Below, piece by piece: positions 31,516-32,005 of a stretch of DNA of 32,005 bases. The translations under genes and the position numbers were made by a program. Source of the DNA: Bacteroidales bacterium (GTDB lineage: Bacteria > Bacteroidota > Bacteroidia > Bacteroidales > UBA932); contig JAFZRV010000017.1 in assembly GCA_017619655.1 (NCBI GenBank), forward strand, positions 1-32,005, written 5' to 3'. The first letter of the stretch is position 1, and each line of letters starts with the position of its first letter. The notes under the pieces are model-generated. The model did no database searches. It was not told the DNA's origin and saw only the letters and a program-made list of their open reading frames with translations.

Positions 31516-31785
31516 CACAGAAAACGACCCCTTGAGCCATGCTTTCCGGGTGCTCTGGACGTTTGCGTGACAGTGTTGCTCCTCATGCTTCGCGGCAGGG
31601 GCGTCCTGCGCGTCCGTCCCTTGACGGCGAACTGCTCCCTTTTAGCCTCGCTATGCTCGTCTAACGGTCGCAGAACCTGCGCCGTCATGTAACGGGACTC
31701 CCGCTTGTCCATCCTTTTTCTGCCGCTCAAAATCGTCGCACCCACTATCACGCACCCGCCACCGCACCCACACCATAGAGTTCAG
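31516..31785 (+). other. GC-rich interval without a convincing gene
   Basis: This 270-base stretch between the rlmB promoter and the RNA promoter holds no recognisable protein. Open frames exist on both strands; the longest is minus 31494-31751 (85 residues from a GTG, 72 from an in-frame ATG). Its Arg/Ser/Thr-rich translation resembles no family I know. A hairpin with the stem GCAGG/CCTGC is at 31595-31609. It is much richer in GC than the flanking promoters, so it could be a small gene, a repeat copy or an untranslated element. Confidence 0.3.
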
Positions 31786-31816
31786 CTAATTATTTGTATT
31801 TTTTCTAAATAATTAG
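31786..31816 (+). repeat. Perfect 10-bp AT-rich inverted repeat
   Basis: CTAATTATTT (31786-31795) and AAATAATTAG (31807-31816) are exact reverse complements around an 11-base T-rich centre, followed on the plus strand by TTTTT. It could be a weak terminator, a protein-binding site or an upstream element of the RNA promoter that starts 20 bases further on. Confidence 0.75.
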
Positions 31817-31835
31817 TTTTTACTCTTCTTTTTTG

Positions 31836-31843
31836 TAAATTTG
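31836..31843 (+). promoter_or_regulatory. -7 element of the structured RNA at the right edge
   Basis: TAAATTTG matches TAnnTTTG exactly. The -33 position falls in the right arm of the inverted repeat (TTAG, 31813-31816). The predicted start of transcription is about 31849-31855, just before the folded RNA. Confidence 0.6.
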
Positions 31844-31849
31844 CTATAC

Positions 31850-32005
31850 TTTCCAATAAGGGAAGCAGACATAGTAATAGCGTTTGCTATTTATTCGGTT
31901 ACCTGAAACCTGAGAAATTTCATTAAGCCGCCGAATAAGTCAGTGAACGCCTGCGCTTAGGCGTGGGTGTGACTTGTTCAGGCTAAGGCATCTCAGGGCC
32001 GCAGG
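31850..32005 (+). ncRNA. Rod-like structured RNA, 6S/Bacteroidales-1-like candidate (3' end cut off)
   Basis: Behind a strong promoter the sequence folds into one long imperfect rod, with no protein frame. A small hairpin is at 31876-31891 (AATAGC-GTTT-GCTATT). The rod pairs CCTG (31902-31905) with 32002-32005, and CCTGAGA (31909-31915) with TCTCAGG (31991-31997). An internal loop of 11 and 7 bases follows, then GCC/GGC (31927-31929 with 31981-31983) and ten pairs with one wobble (31933-31942 with 31970-31979). The tip is a 6-bp hairpin (31947-31952 with 31959-31964, loop GCGCTT). A promoter-like open bubble in a long rod is the plan of 6S RNA, which binds RNA polymerase; the Bacteroidales-1 motif has been proposed to be 6S. 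The pairings are seen directly; the family is an inference, and the outer part lies beyond the window. Confidence 0.55.

Follow-up and report, generated by a model that had tools for sequence, protein, structure and literature searches.

The gene for 6S RNA adjoins zapA in Escherichia coli, and Bacteroidales-1 (RF01693) has a promoter and a terminator, as does the RNA family described here. In type III toxin–antitoxin systems the order is promoter, RNA, terminator and gene. The timing of R-M genes in new hosts and the control of surface proteins in Bacteroidota are open questions. We analysed a stretch of DNA from a Bacteroidales bacterium, called the window below, which is an entire contig of 32005 bases from a genome that is 60.65% complete. 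An earlier note on this DNA described a promoter-driven, rod-like RNA with a central bubble at the end of the contig and suggested 6S RNA or Bacteroidales-1; a promoter-driven structured RNA is strongly supported by our analysis, but this identity is not. In our view the window RNA is probably the 5′ portion of a leader that acts in cis as a bistable attenuator; the family to which it belongs is Bacteroidota-wide and absent from Rfam 15.

The TAnnTTTG promoter element (TAAATTTG) is exact and lies where the note had placed it, and the stretch 31836–32005 contains no ORF of at least 60 aa, in agreement with the view that no protein frame explains the helices. The claim of a structured RNA held as well: folding of 31850–32005 gave −58.8 kcal/mol compared with −40.7 ± 3.7 kcal/mol for 200 dinucleotide shuffles (z = −4.90, 0/200 as good), and covariation in relatives was decisive. 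The computed fold reproduced the 4-bp helix at the window edge, the 7-bp helix and the 11/7 internal loop, but the helices that had been given as 10 and 6 bp are slightly different, 9 and 10 bp. Above the internal loop, helices of 3, 9 and 10 bp are predicted up to the TTAG loop, and a weak 3-bp helix (31927–31929/31987–31989) is placed by the fold into the 3′ side of the internal loop. A competing helix was missed in the earlier description, i.e. 31880–31899 can also pair with 31930–31950 (20 bp). Due to the fact that the window is a complete contig, the RNA is cut by the assembly end and can be completed from relatives only, in which the complete RNA is present. The window copy shows P0, A, A′ and P5 directly, and its segment 4 and gene lie beyond the contig end. 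The features are collected in Table 1. By eye, relatives carry other hairpins at the place of the 5′ end hairpin. Just upstream of the promoter, 31700–31843 has weak matches at two places in its own genome (L002 and L003; 76–84% over 45–67 bases) and in other genomes.

Table 1. Features of the RNA at the 3′ end of the window (positions in the 32005-base contig)
Feature	Position	Strand	Basis
−7 element (TAnnTTTG) of the Bacteroidota promoter, TAAATTTG	31836–31843	+	exact match; also upstream in 9/9 of the first sequence set
Hairpin TTTCC-AATAA-GGGAA at the 5′ end, close to the probable transcription start	31850–31864	+	predicted in the shortened-transcript fold, absent from the best fold of the longer stretch
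AGACATA box preceding P0	31867–31873	+	common to close relatives
P0 hairpin AGCGTTTGCT, most conserved box of the family; also in the 5′ arm of the alternative helix	31879–31888	+	alignment, covariation, fold
Alternative ~20-bp helix, 5′ arm (P0 + A)	31880–31899	+	fold of 31850–31965; permutation z −14.9, 79 representatives
P1 5′ strand CCTG, partner 32002–32005 (4 bp)	31902–31905	+	fold; covariation
P2 5′ strand CCTGAGA, partner 31991–31997 (7 bp)	31909–31915	+	fold; covariation
11/7 internal loop, 5′ side	31916–31926	+	fold
P3/P4 5′ strand; mostly part of the 3′ arm in the alternative fold	31927–31941	+	folds, covariation
Alternative helix, 3′ arm (A′ + P4 5′ strand + J4/5)	31930–31950	+	shortened-transcript fold; permutation test
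P5 5′ strand = segment 1	31947–31956	+	fold, covariation
TTAG apical loop	31957–31960	+	fold
P5 3′ strand = segment 2; alternative partner segment 4 (before the U-tract) in complete relatives	31961–31970	+	fold; permutation tests
P4/P3 3′ strands	31971–31983	+	fold, covariation
11/7 internal loop, 3′ side	31984–31990	+	fold
P2 + P1 3′ strands, truncated where the contig stops; relatives continue into segment 4, U-tract and gene	31991–32005	+	fold; relatives

A rod with a central bubble is present in the window RNA, but this layout is not specific to 6S RNA. The Rfam check that the note had proposed was run on the window and on complete relatives and returned neither of the two families. In the scan of the whole window no family reached its cut-off, and in 31700–32005 none was found at E 10. 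Relatives are the fairer test because the window copy is cut; the complete RNA of eight relatives had no Rfam match at E 5, that of 20 further loci had none (gathering score only), and that of 19 members from outside the order had none at E 1. Matches listed for the 47 scanned loci were tRNA, 5S, DUF805/DUF805b and four sub-threshold ones, none of them on the leader RNA. Thus, as far as scanned (47 loci and the window), the RNA family is absent from Rfam 15. The covariance models of 6S RNA (RF00013, RF01685) had no match on the window RNA or the eight complete relatives, and the same held for Bacteroidales-1, which was also without a match at E 1 in the window's own genome. In this genome, at 60.65% completeness, RF00013 was absent (5/14 control genomes match) and RF01685 gave no match, nor did it in any of the 14 control genomes. 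In the open-access literature we found no description of this RNA family, most subscription papers and all supplementary tables being outside our reach; PMC8040213 predicts 3161 candidates, which may include the leader RNA, and an earlier prediction without a name is possible.

Weak matches to RF01693 (e.g. L039) and one to RF01685 (L321) do occur in the genus; the two whose neighbours were read lie between genes that we named zapA-like and RNase Y by eye, and the RNA at these two loci has no resemblance to the window RNA. The RNA between the zapA-like and RNase Y genes is a better 6S candidate than the window RNA. With its weak matches to Bacteroidales-1 in one genome and to 6S-Flavo in another, it raises the possibility that the 6S RNA of Bacteroidales is Bacteroidales-1, located beside zapA as in E. 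coli. Four further loci of the genus (L037, L038, L040 and L041) with this weakly matching RNA were examined by sequence alone.

DNA search of 61 genomes found the window RNA in seven other genomes of the genus and in one of another family (E ≤ 3.5e-10). TAnnTTTG precedes the RNA in each of these first relatives, and all but the one of the other family have a run of at least 6 T after the hairpin. With a model built from nine sequences, in which 17 of 39 pairs had both-sided change, 15/40 genomes of the genus (10 above 60 bits) and 102/393 genomes of the order were matched at E 0.01, and a broader model, run on the phylum at E 0.0001, matched 53/395 genomes, of which 49 lie outside the order; E-values of these model searches are rough. 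Copy numbers in 34 known carrier genomes ranged from 1 to 36, which are lower bounds, with at most 91 candidates scored per genome; three deeply scanned carriers of the window's own genus had only 1, 2 and 1 copies. The P0+A pattern found 116 stretches, and 73 of the 80 scanned hold the RNA. Record titles of carriers include Muribaculum, Prevotella, Alistipes, Bacteroides and Candidatus Limimorpha, and among the members is a named strain of oral origin, Porphyromonas sp. oral taxon 278 W7784 (L217). The family, of ∼200 nt, is Bacteroidota-wide and widespread in gut and environmental Bacteroidota.

A phage or plasmid origin was considered and rejected. A distant blastn search of 72,556 plasmid and 50,697 phage records, with the complete relative L044 as query, gave no match; two viral contigs match the P0+A pattern, but neither holds the RNA. 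Close copies were found in four of 13 stretches scanned (L306, L307, L308 and L309), and another locus (L314) has two RNA copies 15 kb apart; no array logic was established, and cassette arrays were likewise set aside. At one place two family members stand in tandem on the same strand, ∼60 nt apart, the second one weaker (L099 and L100). In L306 (1970–4932), two ORFs, 246 and 253 aa long, have most of their sequence in common, and each follows an RNA copy at some distance; by eye, they resemble a cargo or immunity-like gene that has been duplicated.

Covariation in relatives was the check named in the earlier note, and the rod pairs co-vary overwhelmingly. In an alignment of 88 sequences, both-sided changes occurred at 39/39 pairs, 94.1% of cells were paired, and 884 cells had both-sided change compared with 251 in shuffles (0/500 shuffles as good); the signal was lost when the partner strand was slid. 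Fitting of the alignment to the model biases it in favour of the rod pairs, but the margin is very large. Permutation of partners in the set of 79 representatives, which are <80% alike, gave z = −39.6 for P1/P2, −23.1 for P3/P4 and −10.2 for P5. The P0 hairpin has the consensus AGCgTTtGCT; a gAAA box and a 3′ CC are conserved in the stretches separating P1 from P2, as is gaAtAAgt in the P4 strand; the unpaired bases flanking P2 are conserved in the consensus as well.

The same permutation approach, which ignores the relatedness of sequences, was applied to pairings that compete with the rod. The alternative helix, P0+A with A′-P4-J4/5, had −19.65 kcal/mol with its own partner and −14.41 kcal/mol with permuted ones (z = −14.9, 76/79 representatives). 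A first test of A:A′ had dropped 33/79 representatives lacking the anchor pattern and was superseded by fixed windows, which retained 78/79 (one dropped for a short flank) and 79/79. In folding of transcripts shortened after P5, 66 of the 79 formed at least 7 pairs of the alternative helix. Moreover, in the 52/79 representatives with a gapless helix of at least 6 bp between segments 2 and 4, a set confined to the order, A:A′ was paired in 47 shortened transcripts and in 1 longer transcript, and the rod was present in 50 longer transcripts.

Pairing of segment 2 with segment 4 was also conserved (z = −10.2, 60/78 representatives), and the own partner was better than the mean swapped partner in 104/113. 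A first count (602/685 versus 406) was biased because the register had been chosen on the own partner, and it was replaced by a test with the register re-optimised in permutations, which gave 765 compared with 722 ± 5.2 (n = 110, z about 8). In a hold-out set, 2:4 pairing had z = −8.2 (36/42), with controls of 0.0 and −1.6; here 74 of 75 matches were kept (one partial match left out), 28 were dropped as ≥85% alike, and 4/46 were dropped for short flanks. Only the 2:4 test is fully independent in the hold-out, because the pattern used for it fixes P0+A. Covariation across these representatives shows two mutually exclusive sets of conserved, predicted helices.

Seven control pairings were near null (z = −0.9, +1.3, −0.2, +0.5, +0.6, +2.0 and +0.1). 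The eighth, which paired the P2/P1 3′ strand with sequence beyond the U-tract, was non-null (z = −5.2; hold-out −4.1), and so was P0 with the same region (z = −5.0; hold-out −2.8); these pairings may be a further regulatory layer or may be composition effects. By eye, segment 1 seemed able to pair with sequence ahead of the start codon, but this did not pass the permutation test (z = −1.8). Pairing of segment 4 with sequence beyond the U-tract had z = −3.3 but +0.6 in the hold-out and was rejected as a general feature. In seven members from outside the order (L169–L173, L179 and L181), a hairpin of the type TCACTTT-GGGNCT-GAGTGA stands soon after the U-tract; by eye, its loop is a mirror of the 5′ half of segment 4, and the two change together.

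The note had named a cis-leader continuing directly into a gene as evidence against its own reading, and this is the arrangement that we found. In 119 loci, which leave out the weak matches L054–L059 and the window's own cut copy, the downstream ORF is on the same strand in 114, commonly 60–120 nt away, on the opposite strand in 3, and not within reach in 2. A stricter rule in the hold-out (same-strand ORF of at least 100 aa starting within 320 nt) was satisfied in 25/36; some members from outside the order had no obvious close ORF behind them by eye. A T-run of at least 4 follows within 70 nt of the RNA in 107/119; it is missing in the other 12/119, and in some members, e.g. L061, there is little or no U-tract. 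TAnnTTTG occurs within 110 nt upstream in 91/136 loci compared with 9.4 in shuffles (maximum 18 in 200), and the upstream promoter element was found in 32/45 of the hold-out, but between RNA and ORF TAnnTTTG is not enriched (5/114 compared with 6.6 expected). As judged from consensus promoters only, the RNA appears to sit in the 5′ leader of a gene without a promoter of its own, and expression of that gene would thus seem to require polymerase to get past the U-tract at the end of the leader. In two loci, L072 and L078, DUF805b matches above cut-off lie between RNA and ORF; small motifs of the DUF805/DUF805b type may be parts of longer leaders. In L078 a DUF805 match (1733–1797) lies inside the ORF as called, thus the called start may be wrong.

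Families of DNA methyltransferases above Pfam cut-offs account for 27 of the 114 downstream proteins (N6_Mtase 9, N6_N4_Mtase 7, EcoRI_methylase 6, C5 methylase 3 and MmeI 2), two of the EcoRI type being known from the tally alone and the others individually. Four more are methyltransferase-like, three just under cut-off (L045, L048 and L060) and L050 by likeness, and PADLOC models of type I, II, IIG and III methyltransferases are among the tallied matches. One downstream protein matches DarT (L077). By a crude signal-peptide rule, 35 proteins are secreted-like and 15 lipoprotein-like, with slight overlap with the methyltransferases; LRR_5 was found in 6 proteins and Por_Secre_tail in 5. Several of the loci are close homologues of each other and hence not independent, and the counts are raw ones. 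In the window's genus, a methyltransferase-type gene follows 7/8 strong complete copies with a readable gene. In L317 the RNA is followed by an EcoRI-type methyltransferase and a DUF262/HNH-like ORF, and in L316 by two methyltransferase-like ORFs and a GIY-YIG/helicase-like ORF (by eye beyond the first gene); these units of the genus look like whole R-M-type operons. Two methyltransferases found behind the RNA in relatives had no match in the window's own genome, 60.65% complete.

In the mechanism that we propose, the TAnnTTTG promoter would start a leader of ∼200 nt that ends in a U-tract before the gene. Early in transcription, the P0+A arm is predicted by folding to pair with A′-P4-J4/5 (∼20 bp), and when the 3′ half has been transcribed, the rod P1–P5 is predicted to be the more stable fold. 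As the early helix would take up the base of the P5 5′ strand, seen in the shortened fold of the window, the P5 3′ strand would be freed. Thus, in a presumed OFF state, a persisting early helix would open the base of P5 and release segment 2 for segment 4, and the 2:4 helix with the U-tract would act as a terminator, keeping the gene off. In a presumed ON state, a rod formed in time would hold segment 2 in P5 and leave segment 4 open, and polymerase would read through. Forcing the 2:4 helix costs a mean of 12.9 kcal/mol above the best fold in the 52 representatives, hence at a cost of about 13 kcal/mol the choice would have to be kinetic or factor-driven. That the choice of fold sets termination, like the signal and the direction of switching, is what we infer from this model. 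A ligand, a protein, pausing or temperature could act as the trigger. A wider proposal is tentative, and we hold it to be possible but somewhat short of an even chance: a horizontally spread, Bacteroidota-wide RNA switch would make R-M genes, and further cargo or surface genes, respond to a single common cue. The early ∼20-bp helix would compete with the late rod during transcription, and strand exchange would link this competition to a terminator with a 3′ strand resembling the apical hairpin.

A special case of the attenuator would be a ligand-binding riboswitch for a common signal, e.g. a second messenger, with the conserved internal loops as pocket. Its bistable architecture, the conserved unpaired bases flanking P2 and the many copies before unrelated genes in some genomes would suit such a model, but the downstream genes share no pathway and no Rfam match was found, and we consider this special case doubtful. 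The own promoter and U-tract and the many copies in some genomes would equally be expected of a free-standing, terminated small RNA of ∼200 nt acting in trans, for which position would mean co-mobilisation and the genes would use unrecognised promoters. Members outside the order that by eye lack a close ORF point the same way, but the presence of a same-strand ORF downstream in nearly all loci and the missing enrichment of TAnnTTTG before that ORF argue against it, so that a trans-acting RNA seems unlikely.

Cargo-like genes, occasional close copies, and the same type of methyltransferase together with the RNA between different flanks in several genomes (by eye) raise the question of a DNA-level element, such as a site where gene cassettes recombine or integrate, in which strand structure rather than RNA is conserved. 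However, promoter upstream and U-tract downstream impose one orientation, and G-U pairs are frequent in P5, which fits the expectation for RNA and counts against such an element; we regard it as quite improbable. To 6S RNA or Bacteroidales-1 we assign next to no probability. The rod with a central internal loop behind a promoter and the low copy number in the three carriers of the window's genus would agree with it, but window and complete relatives have no Rfam match, other carriers have up to 36 copies, the RNA lies in leader position, and a different RNA weakly matching both models sits at the zapA-like and RNase Y genes in two loci of the genus. The cis-acting attenuator leader remains our preferred reading.

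The family is large and has exceptional covariation, and its two competing helices give defined predictions. One structured leader before type I, II, IIG, III and C5 methyltransferases and secreted-like proteins makes both the timing of R-M genes and the control of surface proteins directly testable. If the proposal is true, dozens of genes in some cells would form a shared RNA regulon, and newly acquired R-M systems could be kept silent or timed.

Compared with 6S RNA (RF00013, RF01685), the window RNA is likewise a promoter-driven rod with a central internal loop, but it has no model match, is a leader and has two competing folds, and a separate 6S-like RNA is found at zapA–RNase Y. Bacteroidales-1 (RF01693) is from the same order and of similar length, but gives no match, and its weak matches that were read in the genus sit elsewhere and differ in sequence. 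DUF805b and DUF805 (RF02914, RF03081) are short, separate elements downstream of the leader RNA, without a match in 18 of 20 loci scanned. With type III toxin–antitoxin systems the leader RNA shares the order of parts, but it stands before many protein families, and no repeats were seen in the RNA. With transcription-attenuating leaders and riboswitches as a general class, it has promoter, structured leader, competing helices, U-tract and gene in common. In contrast to these, the leader RNA lacks an Rfam 15 match in the scanned loci, its alternative 5′ helix is ∼20 bp long, the 3′ strand of the presumed terminator pairs with the apical hairpin, often without a good local partner by eye, and the genes behind it are mutually unrelated.
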